From Oscillospiraceae bacterium (GTDB taxonomy: Bacteria > Bacillota > Clostridia > Oscillospirales > Oscillospiraceae), in NCBI GenBank assembly GCA_017456645.1, contig JAFTIZ010000015.1:1-58252 (forward strand): DNA of 58,252 nt, in the 5' to 3' direction. The notes beneath the pieces are model-generated. The model was not told the origin of the DNA. It saw nothing but the letters and a program-made list of their open reading frames with translations, and did no database searches. The position numbers and the translations under genes were made by a program. Below, piece after piece: positions 3,266 to 48,455 of the stretch (positions within the stretch are counted from its first letter, which is position 1; the number at the start of each line of letters is the position of its first letter).

Positions 3266-5176
3266 TTATAGGCTTTCTGCTTCGTCTAGCCAGACTCTAG
3301 CGGAGGCATCGCTGGGCATTTGCCAGCCGCCCCGGGGGCCGAGAGTCACAGTACCAACGGTGACACCATCGGGCTGGCAGTTGCGCTTGAACTGCTGGGT
3401 GAAGAAACGGCGGTAGAAGCTCTTGAGCCATTTCTTAATGGTTCCGGCATCATAGTCGCCGGCAAACGCACGGCAGGCAAGGGCGTAGATCTTGGTGGGG
3501 GTGAAGCCGTAGCGCAGGGCGTAGTACAGGAAGAAATCATGGAGGGCGTAGGGGCCCACCAGATCCTCCGTCTTCTGGGCAATCTTGCCCTGGGCATCCG
3601 GAGGCAGCAGCTCGGGGCTGATGGGCGTGTCCAGAATGTCCATCAGAACATCCTTCGCAGGAGCGAAATCCGGAGTTTCGGCAACGGCTTCGATGATCCA
3701 GCGGATCAGGGTCTTGGGGATAGAGCCGTTGACACCGTACATGCTCATATGGTCGCCGTTGTAGGTGCACCAGCCCAGAGCCAGCTCACTGAGGTCGCCG
3801 GTGCCCACCACGATGCCGCCCACTACGCTGGCGTAATCCATGAGGATCTGGGTGCGTTCCCGAGCCTGAGCGTTCTCGTAGGTGGCGTTGTGGACGTTGA
3901 TGTCGTGGCCAATGTCCTCAAAATGTTGGGTAACGGCCTTTTTGATGGAGATTTCCTTAGCGGATATACCCAGCTTGCGCATCAGCTCCCAGGAATTATT
4001 GTAGGTGCGATCGGAAGTGCCGAAGCAGGGCATGGTCACGCCGTAGACATCTGTAAGGGGTCTGTCCAGCTGGCGCATGGCCTCCACGGCCACCAGCAGA
4101 GCAAGGGTAGAGTCAAGACCGCCGGAAATGCCGAGAACGGCACTGGTATTGATGGTAGCCAGCCGCTGTTTAAGACCAGCCACTTGAATGTTAAAGATTT
4201 CCTTGCACCGCTCGTTCCGGTCGGCCTTGGAAGAGGGAACAAAGGGGAGCTTGCGCAGGGGATAAAGAGTACCGTCGGAGCGGAGGGGTTGATTACAAGG
4301 TGCACAGTACGGGGTTTCGAAATACTGGCTGCGTCTGCGGTCGGAACGAATCTTTCCTAAATCACAGTCCTGAAACAACATATAGTCGGTAGCAATGGGG
4401 AATTCGTTTTCTGCGAGAACTGCTCCATTTTCCGCAATAAGGCTATGACCGGAATATACCAGATCGGACGTGGACTCCGTATTTCCGGCAGAGCAATAAG
4501 CGTAAACGCAATTGCAGGCTGCGGATTGCGCTTTGATCCGTTCTTTACGATATGTGCGCTTGCCGGCAAGCTCATTGGAGGCTGAGAGATTAAGGATGAT
4601 CTCAGCACCTTTTGTTGCAAGCTGTATCGACGGAGAAAGAGGAGCCATCAGATCCTCGCAGATTTCAATACCAGCGACGGCACCATCGCCTAATTCGATC
4701 AAGATGCGGGGGTCAATGGGGATACTCCAGCAATCTTCACAGGGAGCGACTCCCAAATTATCGGCCGGAATATATTCATCCAGATTTTCACCGGAAGAAA
4801 ACCAACGTTTTTCGTTGCCGGGAATGTGAGTTTTGGGCACCAGATATTCCAAGGAGCCATGCCGAATGACAGCACCGCAGTTATAGAGCTTTGTTCCAAG
4901 ACGAACCGGAGTGCCCACCACGGCAGTAATCTCCGGGTGCTTTGCAGAGCAATCCACGATCTGTTTCAGACCTTCCTTGACGGCGTTATGCAGGGCGTCC
5001 TGGAAGAACAGGTCACCGCAGGAGAAGCCTGTCAGGGCCAGCTCCGGGAACAGCACGATATCCGCCTTCTGCAGATCCGCCTTTTCAATATAGGCGCAGA
5101 TGTCGGCGGCATTCTTCTTAACGTCGCCCACCTTCACAGGCGGCACAGCACAGGCAATTCGAATAAAATCCAGCAT
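3266..5176 (-). CDS. nadE: Glutamine-dependent NAD+ synthetase
   Basis: This enzyme amidates nicotinate adenine dinucleotide to NAD+ using ammonia released from glutamine. The N-terminal half is a nitrilase-type glutaminase with the Glu (FPELALTGF, Glu45), Lys (LVPKTHIPG) and Cys (GIEICEDL) triad. The C-terminal half is the ATP-dependent synthetase with the PP-loop SGGLDSTLA near residue 350. At 636 residues it matches the long, glutamine-using class rather than the short ammonia-only NadE. It is a single gene on the minus strand, convergent with gpsA and divergent from the acyltransferase. GGAGG lies upstream of ATG 5176. Confidence 0.97.
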   Translation of the reverse strand: MLDFIRIACAVPPVKVGDVKKNAADICAYIEKADLQKADIVLFPELALTGFSCGDLFFQDALHNAVKEGLKQIVDCSAKHPEITAVVGTPVRLGTKLYNCGAVIRHGSLEYLVPKTHIPGNEKRWFSSGENLDEYIPADNLGVAPCEDCWSIPIDPRILIELGDGAVAGIEICEDLMAPLSPSIQLATKGAEIILNLSASNELAGKRTYRKERIKAQSAACNCVYAYCSAGNTESTSDLVYSGHSLIAENGAVLAENEFPIATDYMLFQDCDLGKIRSDRRRSQYFETPYCAPCNQPLRSDGTLYPLRKLPFVPSSKADRNERCKEIFNIQVAGLKQRLATINTSAVLGISGGLDSTLALLVAVEAMRQLDRPLTDVYGVTMPCFGTSDRTYNNSWELMRKLGISAKEISIKKAVTQHFEDIGHDINVHNATYENAQARERTQILMDYASVVGGIVVGTGDLSELALGWCTYNGDHMSMYGVNGSIPKTLIRWIIEAVAETPDFAPAKDVLMDILDTPISPELLPPDAQGKIAQKTEDLVGPYALHDFFLYYALRYGFTPTKIYALACRAFAGDYDAGTIKKWLKSFYRRFFTQQFKRNCQPDGVTVGTVTLGPRGGWQMPSDASARVWLDEAESL

Positions 5177-37083: not shown

Positions 37084-37159
37084 GCGGGTGTAGCTCATCC
37101 GGTAGAGCGCCACCTTGCCAAGGTGGAGGTAGCGAGTTCGAGCCTCGTCACCCGCTCCA
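37084..37159 (+). tRNA. tRNA-Gly (GCC)
   Basis: Complete cloverleaf of 76 nt with encoded CCA. Acceptor stem GCGGGTG with CACCCGC, anticodon loop TTGCCAA. Its last 21 bases plus two following bases are repeated exactly at 37273-37295. Confidence 0.97.
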
Positions 37160-37180
37160 ATTTAATTTTCTTGAGCCATT

Positions 37181-37295
37181 GGCTCGAATGATTTGATCCA
37201 ATAGTCCGGTGGACTATTAATCGCGACGGCTCGACGGAGCGATACATTTATTTTGCGAAAGCAAAGTGCAAGCGAGCCTCGTCACCCGCTCCAAT
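37181..37295 (+). repeat. tRNA-linked structured repeat, copy A (after tRNA-Gly)
   Basis: Diverged single copy of the repeat family found after tRNA-Cys. It opens with GGCTCGAA, the reverse complement of the tRNA-Gly T-arm (TTCGAGCC), and ends with a 23-nt direct copy (37273-37295) of tRNA-Gly 37139-37161. The outer arms GGCTCG (37181-37186) and CGAGCC (37273-37278) can pair. Inside are three hairpins: 37200-37218 (8 bp, loop GGT), 37221-37242 (TCGC with GCGA) and 37252-37265 (TTTGC with GCAAA, loop GAAA). The hairpin sequences differ from the Cys-linked copies but the pairing is kept. Confidence 0.8.
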
Positions 37296-37305
37296 CAAAT
37301 AGAAT

Positions 37306-37331
37306 AGGAACGCAGTTGCGTTCCTGTTTTT
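37306..37331 (+). terminator. Intrinsic terminator of the Val-Asp-Phe-Gly tRNA transcript
   Basis: An 8-bp stem (37306-37313 with 37318-37325) followed by GTTTTT. It lies only about 8 bp before the next tRNA gene. Confidence 0.85.
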
Positions 37332-37338
37332 ATAAAAT

Positions 37339-37413
37339 GGTACCGTAGCCAAGTGGTAAGGCCCCGGTCTGCAAAACCGTTATTCGCCAGTTCAAATCTG
37401 GCCGGTACCTCCA
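37339..37413 (+). tRNA. tRNA-Cys (GCA)
   Basis: Cloverleaf of 75 nt with encoded CCA. Acceptor stem GGTACCG with CGGTACC, anticodon loop CTGCAAA, T-loop TTCAAAT. The outermost anticodon-stem pair (C with T) is mismatched. A terminator sits directly upstream and no clear promoter of its own is visible. Confidence 0.95.
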
Positions 37414-37449
37414 AAAAAAGACAGAACCCATTTGGGTTCTGTCTTTTTT
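37414..37449 (+). terminator. Terminator after tRNA-Cys, inside a longer palindrome
   Basis: Stem from AAAAAAGACAGAACCCA paired with its complement, ending in T6. The same hairpin recurs at the start of every repeat unit. With the tRNA 3' end it forms a palindrome of about 40 bp per arm. Confidence 0.88.
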
Positions 37450-37620
37450 GGAGATATAGGCCAAGATTTGAACCATTTGATGCAACTGTCCAGTGGACAG
37501 TTGCCGCCGACGGCTCGACGGAGGCGAACAATTATTTTCTCTCCGGAAGGAGAGAAAATGCAAACAAATCTGGCCGGTACCATTTTGAATTAAGAATATC
37601 TAAAGTGTCGCGGATCTTAT
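37419..37620 (+). repeat. Tandem repeat unit 1 (202 bp) with structured core
   Basis: The unit consists of the terminator hairpin, a short linker, the structured core and a 39-bp tail. The core opens with an inverted copy of the tRNA-Cys T-arm (37459-37470) and closes with a 17-nt direct copy of tRNA-Cys 37393-37409 (37565-37581). These arms pair (GGCC and AGATTTG with CAAATCT and GGCC, one bulged A). Inside: hairpin 1 at 37482-37504 (10 bp, loop AGT); hairpin 2 at 37505-37526 (CGCC with GGCG, GA/GA internal loop, CG with CG, loop GCTCGA); hairpin 3 at 37534-37559 (11 bp, GNRA loop GGAA). Overall a four-way junction. Confidence 0.85.
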
Positions 37621-37823
37621 AGACAGAACCCAAATGGGTTCTGTCTTTTTTTGGAGATATAGGCCAAGATTTGAACCATTTGATGCAACTGTCCAGTGGA
37701 CAGTTGCCGCCGACGGCTTGACGGAGGCGAACAATTATTTTCTCTCCGGAAGGAGAGAAAATGCAAACAAATCTGGCCGGTATCATTTTGAATTAAGAAT
37801 ATCTAAAGTGTCGCGGATCTTAT
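37621..37823 (+). repeat. Tandem repeat unit 2 (203 bp)
   Basis: Almost identical to unit 1, with one extra T after the terminator hairpin, a T in the tRNA-end copy (GGTATC), and the hairpin loop in opposite orientation (AAAT for ATTT). The structured core spans 37662-37778. Confidence 0.9.
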
Positions 37824-38025
37824 AGACAGAACCCATTTGGGTTCTGTCTTTTTTGGAGATATAGGCCAAGATTTGTACCATTTGATGCAACTGTCCAGTG
37901 GACAGTTGTCGCCGACGGCTCGACGGAGGCGAACAATTATTTTCTCTCCGGAAGGAGAGAAAATGCAAACAAATCTGGCCGGTACCATTTTGAATTAAGA
38001 ATATCTAAAGTGTCGCGAATCTTAT
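37824..38025 (+). repeat. Tandem repeat unit 3 (202 bp)
   Basis: Almost identical to unit 1. The few changes include a G-U closing pair in hairpin 1, which lets hairpin 2 gain a T-A pair. The structured core spans 37864-37980. Confidence 0.9.
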
Positions 38026-38184
38026 AGACAGAACCCATTTGGGTTCTGTCTTTTTTGGAGATATAGGCCAAGATTTGAACCATGTAAATGCAACACCCCA
38101 GTGGGGTGTTGCTCGCGAGGGCTTGACCGAGTGAAACAAATATTTATGCAGAAGGCAAAAATGCAAACAAATCTGGTCGGTACT
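38026..38184 (+). repeat. Tandem repeat unit 4, diverged
   Basis: Same terminator hairpin and inverted T-arm, but a diverged core (38066-38178). Hairpin 1 is GCAACACCCC with GGGGTGTTGC: three base pairs changed on both sides against unit 1. In hairpin 2 the inner CG with CG has become GG with CC. The tRNA-end copy (38168-38184) has two changes, one giving a G-U pair with the left arm. Confidence 0.85.
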
Positions 38185-38254
38185 TGCGCAACTTGATGAT
38201 ATGCAAGATGTGTGCAGAAATGTGGTGTTCTTGGATCGGATTATAGGTTTATTG

Positions 38255-41270: not shown

Positions 41271-44200
41271 TTAGCTGAGTGTAATTGACGAATGCTTGAC
41301 TGTCGTCAGGGATACGAATTCGTTGGTTGCATGGGTGGAGTTGCTGATAATGATGATGTCGTAGGCGCTGCCCACGGAGCTGTAGCTGCCCAGATAGTCG
41401 GTCAGATCGTAGTACATATCTGTGGCGCTGGACAAGGTGATGGTGGCAACGGGTTCGTAGGTGCCCTTGCCGCTGGTGCGGGCGTAGACTGTAATGGACT
41501 TGGCAGTGCCGTCGGCACTGACGGCCTTGGCACCAAGCTGAAGTGTCCAATCGGCACTATTAACCTTGTAGCTGAAGGAAATGCCGAAGTTGGTGGGCAG
41601 ATACATCTCGTTGTTGGGGCCATACATGTAGATGCTGTCCACGTCGGCGGCGGTCAGGATTTCATCGCCATCCATGTCCTCAATGATGGAGGCGTTCTTC
41701 AGAGCCTGCTCAACAATACTCTGTTTGCCCAGGCCGGAGAAAACATAACTGTTGTTGGCATCTCCGGTGCGGCCAGCCAGATGAACGATTTCCTTCTCAC
41801 CGTAGAGCACACGCAACTCATCAACAGTGGTGTTTTGCTCGGCGGTCAGGGGATAGTCGGCATTGCTGCCCAGCGGGTTATAGATCCGGATGGCGTCAAT
41901 GGAAACGGTCTTACGCTGGGGGGCAGTGTTAAGCGCCTGGATGTATACGGTGTATTGACGATAGCTGCTCAGTCGTACACTGACCACGGGAACCTGATAC
42001 AAATCGCCATTGTTGTAATAGGTATCAACAAAGACCAGATCTGCAGGAGTGGCACCGGAGAAGGTGGTCATGTAATTGATGTACTCATCCTTATGGGAAT
42101 CGGTAAAGACATACACAGCGAAGCCGGCAGATGCGGCATTGGTCTGGGAGATCAGATCAAAGCCGGTGCCGGTGAAGGTGAAGTAAGCATAATCACCGTC
42201 GACGATCACGGCTTCACCTTTATCATTTTCCTCGGCATAGGTGCAATTGAGGGTGGTGGCGGAGCCGGCACTCTGGGCATAGGCATTGTAGCCATCACGG
42301 TGAATATAGGCTTCATCATAGCCGTAGTTCAGGCTCTGGTCATTGCTCTGGGTCAGAGTGGGGTTGGTGCTGGGGGCGTTGCCGGAGAAGATGATCTTGT
42401 TAGCGGCGTCATTGCTGCCGGTGGCGTTGAAGTTATCTTCATAGTACACGGCGTTGGCAGGCATGACCTTGATGGTGCCGGTGAGGGTAGTACCGGTTTC
42501 GGGATCGCCTGCAACAAAGGTCTTGCCGTTGGCAGTGATCTGCACGGTGTAGGTGTAGGTCTCCACCTTGCTCATAAAGGCTACGGGCTGGAAGGTAACG
42601 GCGTAGCTTGCGCCATAGGCGGTAACGGCCTTATTCAGCGTAGCGGTGATGGTGGTCTGGACATTGCCATTTCCGGTAAGGGTTTTCAAAATAGCGCTTT
42701 CACCGGAAACAGAGGTATTGTCGAAGCAGCCGCCTTGGAACAGACCGTCGCCGTTGGTGTTGGTAATTGCCAAATTGGAACTGAGGCCGAAGTCAAAGAC
42801 GTAGACCTTATTGGTGGCCGCGAAGGTGTACACGGTAATGGTGCCGGTAACGATCTCGCTATTACTCAAACGGCCGGTGTATTTAACGGTATATGCCTTG
42901 TTGGCTTCCGCACCGGTGGCTGTAATGGAAGAGCCGTTATAGCTGACGGTCAAACCGTCGGATACGTTGGACACACCGGTGAAGGTGAAGGTGCTGCCGT
43001 TGTACAGGGGAGTATAAGCGGTAGCCTTGCCGGCCTCCACATAGATGACCTTGTCCATGGTGTTGGACTTGACGGTGTTGGTGAAAGTAGCGGTCTGAGT
43101 GCCGTTGGTGGTGATGGTACCGGTGGCGTTGCTGGAGGAGGTCAGGGTCCAGGGATCATCTTCGGATACGACTTCAACCACGCGATAGGTTGCGCCGGCG
43201 GGAATGCCGGAGATGGTAGCGGTCTGACCGCCCTTGATGGTAATGGTGCCATCGTTGGATGTGATGGGTGTACCACCGTCGACACTGTATACCAGCTTGC
43301 TGTACAGCTGTTCGGTGAAATTGGACTTGCTGCCGTCCAGATCCAGATAGACCTGGAAGACGAATTGTGTATCTGCCAGGGCGGAGTCATTGAATATCTT
43401 GCTGATTTGCAGTGAACCAAGCTCCATGGTGTTGGTGAATGTAACAGCATAGCTGTAAGCGGTATTGTCGTCGGCACTGCCCATGGTAAAGGTGGCGGTC
43501 GAACCGGTACCGGTTCCGTTGGTTATGGGCTGATAACCGTTTTTGGCATCGTATACTGCCCATTTTGTTCCGCTGTACTGGAAAATGCTGTTGGTGCTTT
43601 CCTCAATAGTGAAGGCGGTGCCGGGGATGAACGCGTGTTCACCGGCAGAGGTAAAGAAACTGTGTGCGTAGGTGTAGTTGGTGATGCCGGTGATCGTTGC
43701 AGTGTATTTTCTGCCGCTGGTGGAGCCTTTGGGGGTCATAACAGTAGCCATACCGGTATTCTTCTCGGTCAGAGTGAAGTTCTGGAAGGCCACACTGGTG
43801 GTGGAGCTGGGGCTGGTGGCGGACAGAATAAAATTGTAATCGGATACGCCGCTGATCTCATCCAAAAGACCGGCGTTGATATCGGCGCTATTGAGTTCCT
43901 TGCTCAGAGTAAGACCGGAGGGGACGGGAACCATGGTGAACTCCATGGAGAAGTTGGATTCAACCATGCCTCGCTCCACATAGAAAACGGTCATGGTGTG
44001 AATAGCACTGTAATCAAAGTCGCTCAGACCAAGGCTCTCAAAACTCTTAACGCTCTCAGCGGATGCCACGGCAGCACGTTCTTCGGTGGCAACGCCATTG
44101 GTGTAGTTATACAGATAGCTGTAGCTCTTGCCTGCGTAAGCACTGGCGGAATAGGAATCGCCGGAAGTCAGCGCGCCGGTGCTGCTGATGGTATAGGCGT

Positions 44201-47200
44201 CATTGACAGTTGCGGTCTTCTCAGCGAAGTTGATACGACCGCTGGCCTTGGCGTGGGCACCGCCCATGTCCAGAACCAGAACGCCGTCAATGAAGACCCA
44301 TACGTCATCGTCACCGGTGAAGTCAAAGGCCACGGGTTGGCCGTTTGCCAGAAGGCCGTCCTCACTCACGGTGAAGTCGATACTGAACTTGACACCGAAG
44401 CCGTTGTTGACTTCGTTATCTTGGTCATCAGGCTCGTTGAGGGGATAGAAGCCGTAATCGGAGCTGCTGGAATTGCCGTCATTCACACTGTCGAGAATGT
44501 GCGTATCGCTGGCGTAAAGCTGATTGTTGGTGTAATCGTAGTAGACTGCGTAATCGCTGGCGGAGTCGTAGGAATAGGTCGTAACACGGTTTTCGGCATC
44601 ATAGGTCATTTTGAAGGGGAATTTCAAATTCTCGTAATATGCCATAACCGGGTACTGACCACCCTGGTTGGTCCAGCTGTCGGCAGCTTCCTTATTAAAA
44701 TAGAGGAGCGTGCTGCCGGTGGCGGGGTCCACCAGATTTCCATCTACCAGACGATTGCCTACCAGACCCTGAACAGCGGCATCGGTGTTGATGGTGCCAT
44801 TGCCGTCATTGGCGGCCATCGCGGTGTTGATAGCAGAATGCCATTTTCCAAGGGCATAAGTGGTTTCACTGCCGACGATGCGGCTGTAACGGGATGCGAT
44901 ATAGTTCAGAGGACCGAAGTACATGGGGTAGGTGTAGTGCCCGTAGTAGGCCTGCTGGGAGATCAGGTCATTTAAGTAGGAGTAGGGGGAATCGCCGTTG
45001 GAGTTCCAGATGCCCTGGTTGTTGGTGTAGTAGCCTTTAACCTGATTGTTGCCAACACGCTCGTCGTTCAGGTAGTCAACGATATCCACATCAGCATAGA
45101 AGGTGCTGTCAGCAGATAGCGTCTTCTCATCCATCCGGTCGTACTGCTCGGGAATGGCCAGCTTTTCGATGGAAACAGAGCCGGTACCGGTGGAGGGATC
45201 GTAGGTGATGGTGACGTTGCTGGGCAGAGTCAGATCCAGCACATAGTTCTCAGCGGGCCACAGCCAATCGCCGTTCTTGGTGACCTTAAATTCATAGGAG
45301 CCGGCGGGGACGGTGCTGTAAACGATGGTATAGGTGCCGTCGGCATTCTTGGTCATTTGGTTGTTGGTATCGGTGGTGCTCCAGCTGCTGCCGGTCAGAC
45401 CTTCGGAGCCGGCGATGATATAGCTGTCTTCCACGCCCTCCGCGGTAATGGTGATGTTGCCGGTGATCTGGGCAGCGGGAATGGTGAGCTTACCGGTGGC
45501 GCTGTCATAGGTGTAGCTGGAGGTGCTCAGGGTGCTGGAGCCACGCTTGACAGTGATGGTTTCAGGCAGCTGGTAGCCGTTTGCAGGGGTCAGGGTCGCG
45601 GTATAGTCCGCTGCGTTGGAGGCAGTAGAAGCACCGTTGCTGGTGACGTTGGTGCCGTTAAAGGTCACAGTGCGGGATACGACGCCGGTGGCGGAGATCA
45701 CGATATCTCCGGTGATGGCACTGCCGCTGATGACCACCTTGCCGGTGCTTCTGTCATAGGTGTAGCCGGAGGTGACGGTGGTGCCGTTGATGGTGACCGT
45801 AACGGAGGCAGGAAGTTCATAGCCGCTCTTTTTGGTCAGAGTTGCGGTATAGTCGGATCCTGCTGTGGCGGTGGAGTTACCGCTGATGGTTACGTTGGTT
45901 CCGTTGAGCGTGACCTTGACGCTGGCAGTGGAGGTAGTTATGGTTACCGTGTGATTGGAAAGGTTCAAGGTAACCGTTACGTTGCTCATGGCACTGATGG
46001 TAAAGCTCTTATTGCCGGAGCTGGGCCACTGACCGGCATCGTAGCTGCCGTTTTTGATACATTTAAGCTCATAGGTACCGGCAGGTACGTTGGTGTAAGT
46101 GATGGAGTAGGTGCCGTCGCTGTTTTTGGTCATCACATTGTCCAGATCGGTAGTGTCCCAATTGGAGCCTGCGATGCCGGATTCGCCGACGACCATATAA
46201 TAGTCTTCCTCACCCACGGCGGTGATGGTGATATTGCCGGTGATGGCACTGCCGGTGATGGTGACGACACCGGTAGAGCTGTCATAGCTGTAGTAGCTGG
46301 TGGAGAGGGTGGTGCTGCCGCGCTTGACGGTGATGGACGCGGGCAGGTGGTAGCCGCTGGCGGCGGTCAGCGTGGCGGTATAGGCAACACCGTTATAGGC
46401 CTTGGAGTCGCCGCTGCCGGTAACATTGGTGCAGGAGAAGGTGACGGTATAGCTGGCCACCAGTTCCTCATACTCTACGCTAATGGACCCGGTGCTGGGG
46501 TTAAAGGTGATGGTGACATCGCTCTTGACGGACAGGGTGAACTCGTAATTGCCGTCTGTGCCGCTGCCGCCCCAGCTGTTGGCCCAGCTGCCATCGGTGA
46601 CCTTGAAGCTGTGATTGCCGGCGGGAACGTTGGAGAAGGTGATGGAGTAGGTTCCGTCAGAATTGAGGGTCATGGGGTTCTGGGTGGGATCCCATGCGGT
46701 GTTGCACAGGTCGGCGGTACCGGCGACGGTGTAGATCTTCACACCGGCGGCGGTGATGGTCAGCGCACCGGTGGTGGCGCTGGCGGCGATGGTCAGCGCA
46801 CCGGTGGAGCTGTTATAGGTATAGTCGGTGCCGCTGGTCAAAGTGGTGGAGCCCCGCTTGACCGTAATGGATGCGGGAAGGGAATAGCCGGAGGCACCAG
46901 CCAGAGTAGCGGAATAGCTGCTGCCGTGAGAGACAGTGGTTGCACCGCTGGACTTGGTCACGTTGGTCAAAGAGTAGGTGACGGCGTAGGTGTTCAGGGT
47001 GCCACTGGCGGTGATGGTGATATTGCCGGTGATATAGGTTCCGGTGATGGTAACAGTACCGCTGCTGTAGGTATAATGTGTGCCCTTTGTCAGGGTGGTG
47101 GTGCCGCACTTGACGGTGATGGAACTGGGCAGGGTGTATCCGGTGTTCGCCGTGAATTTGGCGGTATAGTTGGTGCCGTAGGTGGCGGTGGAGTTACCGC

Positions 47201-48455
47201 TGGATTTGGTTAGATTGGTCAAACTGAAGGTGACATTGTAGCTGTTGGCAGTCGCGTTGGCAGTGATGGTAATATTGCCGGTGACATAGGCGGCGTAAAT
47301 GGTCAGCGCGCCGGTGGAGCTGTTGTAGGAATAGCCGGTGCCGCTTTTCAGGGTAGTAGAGCCTGCCTTGACGGTAATGGAGGAAGGCAGAGAATAGCCG
47401 GTATCTGCACTCAGAGTGGTGGTATACTGTGTGCTTTCGGTCACAGTAGAGGCACCGGTCATGCTGACCCCGGTACCGCTGAGAGTGACGGAGTATGTGC
47501 TGGCGGGGATCTCTTCGCCGGCGGCGGTAATGGTGATGGCACCGGTGACGGAAGCGGCCTTGATGGTGATGCTACCGGTGGAACTGCTGTAGGTATAGTT
47601 GCTGGTGCTCAGGGTGGAGTTGCCGACCTTGACGGTAATGGAGGTGGGCAGCGTATAGCCGGAGGAAGCAGCCAGCTTTGCTGTATAGGAAGTGCCATGG
47701 GTGGCGGTGGCATTACCACTGGACTTGGTCACATTGGTCAGGGAGAAAGTGACATTATAGGTCTTGGCGACACCGGAGCCGGAAATGGTAATGTCTCCAG
47801 TGACAGAGGTGCCATAAATCGTCAGCGCACCGGTGGAACTGCTGTAGGTATAATCGGTGCCGCTGGTCAATGTGGTGGAGCCCACCTTGACGGTGATGGA
47901 GGAGGGCAGGGTGTAGCCGGTGGAGGCGGTCAGAGTGGCAGAATATGCGCTGCCGGAGGTGGCTGTGGTACTGCCGTTTGAGGTGATGTTGGTCAAACCG
48001 CTGAAGCTGACGCTGTGGGTCTGGGTGGACCAGGAGCCGTTACAATATTCGTTGGAGGTCCAACCAGTGATGGTGTAACAGTTGTTAGAACCAATGGTCA
48101 AATCGTAGGTTCTGTTCCAGCAGTTCCAGTCGTCAGATGTGGAACTCGGGTCTTTGCGAAGGAAGATGATGTTGTTAACGGTTGTAGGGACGGTAAACTC
48201 ATAGATGCCGTCGCTGTTAGAATCGGTGCCTTTATACCAAGAGCCGCTACCGTTGTCAGGCCACGCCCAGGCAGAGAACCATGCGTTAGCCTGGTTCCAC
48301 ATACTGGAACCGCCGGTGTTCAGGTAGATGATTCTGTCCGTAGCGGCAGCGTGGGTGTTGACATCCATGTAGTTGCCCACGGGTGCGGCACTCAGCAGCA
48401 ACGCGAGGGCAAGTAGGATACTCAGCACTTTTTTCCATGTTCTTGTTGTGTTCAT
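41271..48455 (-). CDS. Giant secreted modular beta-repeat protein with fibro-slime, starch-binding-like and Cna-B-like domains
   Basis: A 2394-residue Ser/Thr/Gly/Asn-rich exported protein. A signal peptide (1-37) is followed by a carbohydrate-binding-like module (about 40-145). Five beta-repeats of about 80 residues follow (147-571), each with GY(T/S)LPxSITVK and a final TGxITI. A starch-binding (X25-like) module (574-663), repeat 6 (668-748), a second X25-like module (751-845), repeats 7 and 8 (847-1007) and a third X25-like module (1010-1097) come next. Further on are a fibro-slime region with FTGDDDVWVFIDGVLVLDMGG (about 1370-1400), a Cna-B/SpaA-like domain and further beta-rich parts. 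No LPxTG or C-terminal helix is seen, so surface attachment is unclear. AAAGGGG precedes ATG 48455. Confidence 0.85.
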   Translation of the reverse strand: MNTTRTWKKVLSILLALALLLSAAPVGNYMDVNTHAAATDRIIYLNTGGSSMWNQANAWFSAWAWPDNGSGSWYKGTDSNSDGIYEFTVPTTVNNIIFLRKDPSSTSDDWNCWNRTYDLTIGSNNCYTITGWTSNEYCNGSWSTQTHSVSFSGLTNITSNGSTTATSGSAYSATLTASTGYTLPSSITVKVGSTTLTSGTDYTYSSSTGALTIYGTSVTGDITISGSGVAKTYNVTFSLTNVTKSSGNATATHGTSYTAKLAASSGYTLPTSITVKVGNSTLSTSNYTYSSSTGSITIKAASVTGAITITAAGEEIPASTYSVTLSGTGVSMTGASTVTESTQYTTTLSADTGYSLPSSITVKAGSTTLKSGTGYSYNSSTGALTIYAAYVTGNITITANATANSYNVTFSLTNLTKSSGNSTATYGTNYTAKFTANTGYTLPSSITVKCGTTTLTKGTHYTYSSGTVTITGTYITGNITITASGTLNTYAVTYSLTNVTKSSGATTVSHGSSYSATLAGASGYSLPASITVKRGSTTLTSGTDYTYNSSTGALTIAASATTGALTITAAGVKIYTVAGTADLCNTAWDPTQNPMTLNSDGTYSITFSNVPAGNHSFKVTDGSWANSWGGSGTDGNYEFTLSVKSDVTITFNPSTGSISVEYEELVASYTVTFSCTNVTGSGDSKAYNGVAYTATLTAASGYHLPASITVKRGSTTLSTSYYSYDSSTGVVTITGSAITGNITITAVGEEDYYMVVGESGIAGSNWDTTDLDNVMTKNSDGTYSITYTNVPAGTYELKCIKNGSYDAGQWPSSGNKSFTISAMSNVTVTLNLSNHTVTITTSTASVKVTLNGTNVTISGNSTATAGSDYTATLTKKSGYELPASVTVTINGTTVTSGYTYDRSTGKVVISGSAITGDIVISATGVVSRTVTFNGTNVTSNGASTASNAADYTATLTPANGYQLPETITVKRGSSTLSTSSYTYDSATGKLTIPAAQITGNITITAEGVEDSYIIAGSEGLTGSSWSTTDTNNQMTKNADGTYTIVYSTVPAGSYEFKVTKNGDWLWPAENYVLDLTLPSNVTITYDPSTGTGSVSIEKLAIPEQYDRMDEKTLSADSTFYADVDIVDYLNDERVGNNQVKGYYTNNQGIWNSNGDSPYSYLNDLISQQAYYGHYTYPMYFGPLNYIASRYSRIVGSETTYALGKWHSAINTAMAANDGNGTINTDAAVQGLVGNRLVDGNLVDPATGSTLLYFNKEAADSWTNQGGQYPVMAYYENLKFPFKMTYDAENRVTTYSYDSASDYAVYYDYTNNQLYASDTHILDSVNDGNSSSSDYGFYPLNEPDDQDNEVNNGFGVKFSIDFTVSEDGLLANGQPVAFDFTGDDDVWVFIDGVLVLDMGGAHAKASGRINFAEKTATVNDAYTISSTGALTSGDSYSASAYAGKSYSYLYNYTNGVATEERAAVASAESVKSFESLGLSDFDYSAIHTMTVFYVERGMVESNFSMEFTMVPVPSGLTLSKELNSADINAGLLDEISGVSDYNFILSATSPSSTTSVAFQNFTLTEKNTGMATVMTPKGSTSGRKYTATITGITNYTYAHSFFTSAGEHAFIPGTAFTIEESTNSIFQYSGTKWAVYDAKNGYQPITNGTGTGSTATFTMGSADDNTAYSYAVTFTNTMELGSLQISKIFNDSALADTQFVFQVYLDLDGSKSNFTEQLYSKLVYSVDGGTPITSNDGTITIKGGQTATISGIPAGATYRVVEVVSEDDPWTLTSSSNATGTITTNGTQTATFTNTVKSNTMDKVIYVEAGKATAYTPLYNGSTFTFTGVSNVSDGLTVSYNGSSITATGAEANKAYTVKYTGRLSNSEIVTGTITVYTFAATNKVYVFDFGLSSNLAITNTNGDGLFQGGCFDNTSVSGESAILKTLTGNGNVQTTITATLNKAVTAYGASYAVTFQPVAFMSKVETYTYTVQITANGKTFVAGDPETGTTLTGTIKVMPANAVYYEDNFNATGSNDAANKIIFSGNAPSTNPTLTQSNDQSLNYGYDEAYIHRDGYNAYAQSAGSATTLNCTYAEENDKGEAVIVDGDYAYFTFTGTGFDLISQTNAASAGFAVYVFTDSHKDEYINYMTTFSGATPADLVFVDTYYNNGDLYQVPVVSVRLSSYRQYTVYIQALNTAPQRKTVSIDAIRIYNPLGSNADYPLTAEQNTTVDELRVLYGEKEIVHLAGRTGDANNSYVFSGLGKQSIVEQALKNASIIEDMDGDEILTAADVDSIYMYGPNNEMYLPTNFGISFSYKVNSADWTLQLGAKAVSADGTAKSITVYARTSGKGTYEPVATITLSSATDMYYDLTDYLGSYSSVGSAYDIIIISNSTHATNEFVSLTTVKHSSITLS

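Follow-up and report, generated by a model that had tools for sequence, protein, structure and literature searches.

Hairpin repeats at tRNA 3' ends in Oscillospiraceae and relatives, with a downstream arm that follows the neighbouring tRNA

How does a repeat that lies behind two different tRNA genes come to end, in each case, in a copy of the 3' end of the very tRNA that it follows? The locus raising this question belongs to a window (the whole stretch of DNA analysed: 58,252 nucleotides, one contig) taken from an incomplete source genome of 1.15 Mb, 53% complete. Here, a tRNA cluster of the order Val-Asp-Phe-Gly-Cys ends at 37413 (tRNA annotation of the window), with one copy of the element behind tRNA-Gly and an array of four behind tRNA-Cys.

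The element and its place behind tRNA genes

From upstream to downstream, each element consists of an 'R' arm, the reverse complement of the T-loop plus part of the T-stem; a 'core' of hairpins; and a 'D' arm, a copy of the tRNA 3' end (R-core-D). Its parts are placed in the window as follows:

37084–37159, plus strand: tRNA-Gly(gcc), host of the first copy, with D0 at 37139–37159 (tRNA search and repeat comparison)
37181–37188, plus strand: R arm of the Gly copy, reverse complement of the T-loop side, GGCTCGAA (sequence; covariance-model match 37179–37280)
37189–37272, plus strand: core of the Gly copy, hairpins H1, H2 and H3 (folding and covariance-model match)
37273–37295, plus strand: D1 of the Gly copy, a 23-nt copy of the tRNA-Gly 3' end (direct repeat)
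37339–37413, plus strand: tRNA-Cys(gca), host of the array, with D0 at ~37393–37413 (tRNA search and direct repeat)
37414–37449, plus strand: terminator hairpin 3' of tRNA-Cys (inverted repeats; copies near 37621, 37824 and 38026)
37459–37581, plus strand: Cys copy 1, with R at ~37459–37474, core, and D1 at 37565–37581 (repeats, fold, covariance-model match 37463–37572, 111 bits)
37662–37784, plus strand: Cys copy 2, D at 37768–37784 (repeats, covariance-model match 37666–37775, 111.1 bits)
37864–37986, plus strand: Cys copy 3, D at 37970–37986 (repeats, covariance-model match 37868–37977, 104.3 bits)
38066–38184, plus strand: Cys copy 4, core diverged with compensated stems, D at 38168–38184 (repeats, covariance-model match 38070–38175, 88.6 bits)

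In the Gly copy, 37273–37295 (23 nt) is identical to 37139–37161 and falls within a 28-nt repeat of 93%; behind tRNA-Cys, 17-nt copies of 37393–37409 begin at 37565, 37768, 37970 and 38168 (100, 94, 100 and 88%, respectively), with the inverted T-arm of unit 1 found again in units 2–4. The first-pass annotation had described just this arrangement—one element in five copies sharing a core, bounded in the Gly copy by the inverted T-loop side and an exact 23-nt tRNA end, and in the Cys copies by an inverted T-arm and 17-nt copies of the tRNA 3' part—and it is upheld by register-matched repeats and covariance-model matches for all five.

The Cys array has a period of 202 bp, repeated 3.8 times, with the terminator hairpin inside the period; as this hairpin sits between tRNA-Cys and R, the tRNA 3' end, terminator and R together make up one imperfect palindrome. 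The stretch with Cys unit 1 is predicted to fold at -60.3 kcal/mol (z -7.9; none of 200 shuffles as good), an outer R:D stem enclosing three hairpins, and that with the Gly copy at z -5.1 (again 0/200). The D arms of the window are specific, 16–18 of 18 positions matching their own tRNA; the R arms alone are not, that of the Gly copy being matched equally well by 30 of 70 other tRNAs. At gathering level Rfam gave only tRNAs, and its sub-threshold matches in this region, which look like terminator and palindrome noise, were set aside. Elsewhere in the window, a 2394-aa reading frame runs along the minus strand at 41271–48455, the longest among the window frames listed.

An exact 30-base pattern of the family was found at seven loci; where the records carry a name, they are metagenome-derived genomes of Oscillospiraceae, including one from roe deer colon. 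When 60 relatives were searched at the DNA level, 21 had matches, every one in the window's own genus; two of these 21 are accounted for by L024 and L026, rejected as coding false positives by eye. With a covariance model built from 25 elements (R1), matches were obtained in at least 119 of 136 genomes of the genus and at least 15 of 295 in an order-wide draw; outside the genus, a tRNA lies nearby in 16 of the 18 matched loci (the exceptions being L070 and L074), and many show, by eye, a second core type in which H1 is nested within a longer stem. A model of this second type (R2, 13 sequences) matches at least 90 of the 295 order genomes (44 of 148 genera; E 0.01), with best E values up to 0.001 in 81 genomes, as well as some type-1 copies (G000:C37 and C5); phylum-wide at E 0.001, it matches at least one of 398 genomes, the window's own, in a set of which six came from the order. 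These counts are lower bounds, because 28 (R1, genus), 13 (R1, order), 15 (R2, order) and 11 (R2, phylum) candidates were scored per genome. Both models include arm columns and so lean towards tRNA-like ends. In each of six genomes, 16–34 matches were found (E 0.1). The element family is real, strong and widespread in one order.

Two IMG/VR viral contigs (L244, L245) each hold an element, that of L245 beside a tRNA-Thr-like 3' remnant; these are possibly the ends of integrated prophages. We also saw another repeat, with a CGACAAGTTTCGA..AAACTTGTCG hairpin, directly 3' of tRNA genes or elements (L007 after 1620, L019 after the Tyr element, L046 at 242–330, and L154).

Position was counted over all tRNAs and all elements up to E 0.1 in three near-complete genomes. 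In line with the expectation of the first-pass annotation that hits would have a tRNA gene upstream, 49 of the 61 elements lie within 700 bp 3' of a same-strand tRNA, 39 of them within 80 bp; among the remaining 12, three are 3' of tmRNA (one in L183, two in L184), and others are located where a contig ends or downstream of inserted genes. The units are found alone, in tandem arrays and between the tRNAs of an operon, and 10/33, 14/32 and 15/31 of the last-in-cluster tRNAs are occupied in the three genomes. Pairs of matches 1–3 kb apart were considered as gene cassettes and discarded, since such a pair in L096, L097 and L098 comes from two tRNAs that have an element apiece. In L230 (1253–2950), a tRNA-Val(gac) has two elements, after which come a small gene, the truncated remnant of a tyrosine recombinase and a partial third element; this tRNA or its end is a recurrent crowded site (L179, L188, L238).

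Arms, edges and fold

To what extent do the arms follow the tRNA? We compared 79 distinct elements, located at most 700 bp behind 27 tRNA/tmRNA types, with their own tRNA and with 70 other tRNA ends, leaving out 29 elements without a same-strand upstream tRNA in the fetched DNA and three beyond 700 bp. On average D agrees with its own tRNA at 16.7 of 18 positions and with others at 9.8, the own tRNA being strictly best in 68 of 79; for R, the means are 10.5 of 12 and 8.3, with the own tRNA strictly best in just 13 of 79, because T-arms are common to many tRNAs. With the R2 loci included (37 elements, five left out), D scores 16.1 against 9.9 and is strictly best in 29/37, R in 4/37. The elements in which D is not strictly best (11/79 and 8/37) include one from a sister genus (L067), the second copies of L023, L030 and L013, and L071 and L086 amongst the R2 loci. 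The host specificity that had been proposed for both arms, and the expected match between terminal arms and neighbouring tRNA, therefore hold for D; R fits its tRNA, but in a form common to many. At the orthologous Cys site, D follows variants of tRNA-Cys in L120, L151 and L055, with a mismatch to the own tRNA in L146 and L152.

The edges of both arms were located in 73 non-tandem elements, after removal from 163 aligned elements of 67 with no tRNA within 70 bp, three duplicates, five with D below 14/18, and 15 in tandem. Between C56 and position 69, D is 97–100% identical to the tRNA; on one side of this stretch identity is 16% at T55 and 1% at T54, and on the other it drops to 70% for the final A of CCA and 42% immediately past it. 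R (72 elements) is 97–99% identical over its first eight positions, counted from T54, then 94% and 79% at positions nine and ten, and 40% at G53. Selection of the elements by D and R score inflates these heights, though not the outer edges. The D arm therefore starts between T55 and C56, and the R arm at T54, regardless of the tRNA; judged by sequence, R is the reverse complement of T54 to around position 62. Two bases of R match the tRNA (T54–T55) yet cannot pair with D1.

In an alignment of 111 distinct rows, 97.6% of cells are paired and both sides of a pair have changed in 640 cells, compared with one side in 39; double changes are seen in 26 of the 30 pairs, with slid and shuffled controls far lower, in an alignment that was itself fitted to the model and with shuffles that leave relatedness uncontrolled. 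Some copies are without H3 and have H2 replaced. G-T pairs are scarce, at 1.4% (1.1% in H1–H3; 0.9% in type 2). In 81 tRNAs their share is 6.2% for acceptor stems and 11.9% for T stems, and 86 terminator hairpins have 2.7%. We read this as pointing to a constraint at the level of DNA, rather than as proof; selection on both strands could be another source of the same scarcity.

Movement and origin of the ends

An indication of movement comes from a Gln-Lys operon, where one locus is empty (L262: tRNA-Gln, a few bases, tRNA-Lys) and another is the same save for a 114-bp insert of spacer-R-core-D (L275), whose D occupies the native place before tRNA-Lys; this is the one clean pair in which direct repeats of the tRNA 3' end flank an insert and an empty site exists elsewhere. 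No excision product or fresh insertion was observed. Of 30 Cys loci fetched, 24 have enough sequence past the tRNA to be scored by eye, six occupied and 18 empty; an empty locus (L153) and an occupied one (L146) have the first terminator type in common, such that entry behind the terminator fits better than entry at D. A further comparison at this site, of L154 with L007, counts little, because the common flank recurs behind other tRNAs; L154 reaches just 96 bp past the tRNA.

A tree of cores (65 elements, 96 columns, 30 of 62 inner branches open) unites Tyr/Gly, Ser/Pro, Gln/Glu, Cys/Pro, Thr/Ser and Pro/Trp in supported clades; cores behind different tRNAs thus cluster together while most D arms match each their own tRNA. 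Mapped onto this tree, the amino acid requires 39 changes against 44.8 when shuffled (0/300), a weak but significant link, so that some copies are inherited in place; the genome label carries no signal on the same tree (33 changes against 34.4; 77/300). As D follows tRNA identity and both occupied and empty sites exist, the proposal of the first-pass annotation that the ends are taken from the local tRNA is supported, the comparison of occupied with empty sites that it called for having found both at the Cys loci and in the Gln-Lys operon; insertion into tRNA 3' ends and copying primed at them, the routes it named, are candidates.

Our first choice, at about even confidence, is a small, mobile, non-autonomous DNA unit that inserts at the 3' ends of tRNA genes and derives its own ends from the target. 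The unit would comprise a spacer or terminator followed by R-core-D, at the 3' end of a tRNA or tmRNA, and would enter at the T-loop such that an intact tRNA 3' end flanks the insert on each side, as is the case for integrative elements at tRNA genes. It may work as folded single-stranded DNA that does not carry its ends along but acquires them from the target, either during insertion or afterwards, and a recombinase or copying enzyme would act in trans.

Candidates for such an enzyme were sought among the genomes and loci at hand, and none proved to be the mover. A resident REP/RAYT-type mover is not supported, the Y1 transposase being absent in four of six element-rich genomes (G147, G076, G066, G011), and present in the other two (G018, G019) and in three of six element-free genomes. 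Tyrosine recombinases (the general family PF00589) were rejected as a marker, as they also occur in all four element-free genomes of the eight compared and fail to separate rich from free. Large serine recombinase genes end at a tRNA 3' remnant in three loci (L095, 2790–4385, and L188, 835–2388, by Pfam; L182, ~3850–4250 on the minus strand, by eye), and integrase genes lie close to some tRNAs. At the three serine recombinase junctions the order, by eye, is gene end, tRNA 3' remnant, terminator, R-core-D; the genes therefore end upstream of the unit and look like later guests in the tRNA, for which reason they were dismissed as the mover. Serine-recombinase elements of this kind do seem to integrate in tRNA 3' ends in the genus.

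The strongest rival, a real if minority possibility, is that the element is a structured RNA kept by selection and made by read-through of the tRNA terminator, in the manner of the tRNA-linked repeat (TLR) or RtT small RNAs of other bacteria or of a tRNA 3' trailer; the R:D1 pairing would then hide an anti-T-loop sequence otherwise able to invade the tRNA. The strong fold (seen also for type 2 and for the proK repeat of Escherichia coli), the strong covariation and the position on the tRNA's strand all agree with an RNA, as do the two R bases complementary to T54–T55 that cannot pair with D1. There are precedents too: the E. coli TLRs rrA, rrB and rrF give rise to transcripts that bind Hfq and CsrA (PMC8144298), and two RtT RNAs are expressed in A. 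pleuropneumoniae (PMC4986893). Set against this, G-U pairs are rare, H3 and the usual H2 are missing from some copies, and arms that merely pair with each other need no match to the tRNA up to CCA; copies behind the last tRNA of a cluster sit, in most loci inspected, beyond a terminator-like hairpin, and only 10/33, 14/32 and 15/31 of last-in-cluster tRNAs have an element at all.

It is also conceivable, though we consider it unlikely, that no mobile unit is involved: template switching during replication at the terminator hairpin would create R by snap-back and unequal recombination would duplicate D, with gene conversion and palindrome correction keeping up the likeness. Such a route would account for the single palindrome of tRNA end, terminator and R (the R match extends over 26 nt in L021), for the window array, which is a plain tandem duplication with the terminator included, and for the three loci in which D follows tRNA-Cys variants; it leaves unexplained a core common to 27 tRNA types, the fixed edges at T54 and C56, and the units inside tRNA operons, whose R has no terminator ahead of it.

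A fourth reading, which we judge distinctly unlikely, would make of these loci a tRNA-anchored cassette system, with R-core-D a single-strand recombination site whose outer stem rebuilds a T-loop half-site, and tRNA 3' ends the platform at which cassettes (gene, terminator, R-core-D) are inserted or exchanged. It is prompted by loci where a gene and a terminator-like hairpin precede R-core-D: L099 (TIR, PF13676), L101 (XRE, PF01381), L180 (LCM methyltransferase, PF04072) and, by eye, L179 (XRE). Most units inspected carry no gene. Were this reading true, the TLRs of E. coli would represent what is left, in a different phylum, of one common principle. The TIR-domain gene of L099 (5388–6209, between tRNA-Ser and the element) is possibly one of defence, and in L105 a BlaR1/BlaI-type operon of opposite orientation separates tmRNA from the element.

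Lastly, that the repeats are remnants of the attachment sites at which ordinary integrative elements (ICEs, prophages) use tRNA 3' ends is highly improbable: direct repeats of the tRNA 3' end do flank the insert, serine recombinase genes do end at tRNA remnants in L095, L182 and L188, and integrases lie near some tRNAs, but hundreds of matches share one folded core, a 114-bp unit sits inside a tRNA operon, and the three serine-recombinase genes end upstream of terminator-R-core-D, suggesting their later arrival.

Comparison with known systems

The mobile, non-autonomous unit that we favour has its closest likeness in the TLRs of E. coli, first described in 1978, of which K-12 has 22 in ten loci, all ending in 18–19 bp of the upstream tRNA or rRNA and, by 2021, with no known function besides that proposed for three (PMC8144298). 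The rule obeyed by D was thus already known, and the first-pass remark that no described family was known to behave in this way fails for this end. The word 'inverted' is absent from the main text of PMC8144298.

The same rule can be seen directly in K-12. In the rttR repeats behind tyrV, D recurs at intervals of 178 bp and each core is preceded by an inverted segment, GGGGAAGGAT. The RtT copies that follow lysV (47 bits) and proK (101 bits) terminate with the 3' ends of tRNA-Lys and tRNA-Pro, and a sub-threshold copy between argV and argY (29 bits) with that of tRNA-Arg, with no RtT match at the proM and leuV loci. At lysV the two arms fold locally into a hairpin instead of forming an outer stem (z -1.8 on folding).

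The K-12 RtT-like repeats at proK (L255, 649–782), lysV (L254, 660–785) and argV-argY (L258, 340–450) are missing from the feature table, and two other E. coli records label copies as 'processed from tyrT transcript', though one (L253) follows tRNA-Lys and the other (L252) lies by dppA. In rrnB (L287, 245–262 and ~414–431), a 5S-linked repeat copies 18 bp that run beyond the annotated 5S end (257); its core holds GGATTTGAAC, which is anti-T-arm-like though 5S has no T arm, and was possibly moved from a tRNA.

The two groups agree in lying behind a tRNA (for TLRs, rttR and Rfam RtT RF00391 included, a tRNA or 5S rRNA) on its own strand, in an end that copies the 3' end of the upstream gene (18–19 bp in TLRs; PMC8144298), and in tandem copies. 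Correspondingly, 49/61 Oscillospiraceae elements are within 700 bp 3' of a tRNA, D averages 16.7/18 (thinning out towards CCA), and four copies stand in tandem at tRNA-Cys. By eye, the inverted T-arm segment before a hairpin-rich core is also present at tyrV, proK and argV, with another arrangement at lysV. They differ in where D starts (~A58 in E. coli, C56 here), and the Oscillospiraceae lineage belongs to another phylum, with 16–34 matches per genome (six genomes, E 0.1). RtT (RF00391) is not amongst the 33 matches up to E 5 for 37160–38210, and R1 has no match up to E 10 in five enterobacterial loci (L243, L250, L254, L255, L258). With no core homology to E. coli found, the likeness is one of anatomy, common descent not being supported by these searches.

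Integrative elements at tRNA genes, moved by a tyrosine or serine integrase, likewise have the tRNA 3' end on both sides of the insert, leave the tRNA intact and form arrays; the present unit differs in having no integrase, a length of ~80–200 bp, one core family for 27 tRNA types and the inverted arm R. Integron cassettes share with it a hairpin site (the folded attC) whose ends pair with each other, and a few copies have a gene and terminator before R-core-D. In attC, the inverted core sites read RYYYAAC ... GTTRRRY; here R ends in GAA(C), D1 has no TT, and D is without the GTT of the attC core site (T54 1%, T55 16%), most units moreover being geneless. REP/BIME palindromes, which are linked to RAYT transposases, are also short, non-autonomous, intergenic hairpin elements, from which our family is set apart by the absence of Y1 in four of six element-rich genomes and by ends that depend on the adjacent tRNA.

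In the open-licence PMC literature we found no relevant report of such repeats in Clostridia or Oscillospiraceae, nor of integron-like tRNA repeats; the term 'tRNA-linked repeat' itself appears there in two papers. Loci of this kind can pass for tRNA remnants, attachment sites or small RNAs, a point of caution for annotation. Going by sequence and predicted fold, the repeats of Oscillospiraceae and relatives are a new TLR-like lineage, the cores of which are unrelated to those of E. coli as far as tested. Their occurrence in a group so distant from E. coli makes the mode of spread testable, and a second lineage, with other cores, sharp T-loop edges, compensated hairpins and an empty site, turns the copying of tRNA ends into a question open to comparison and experiment alike.
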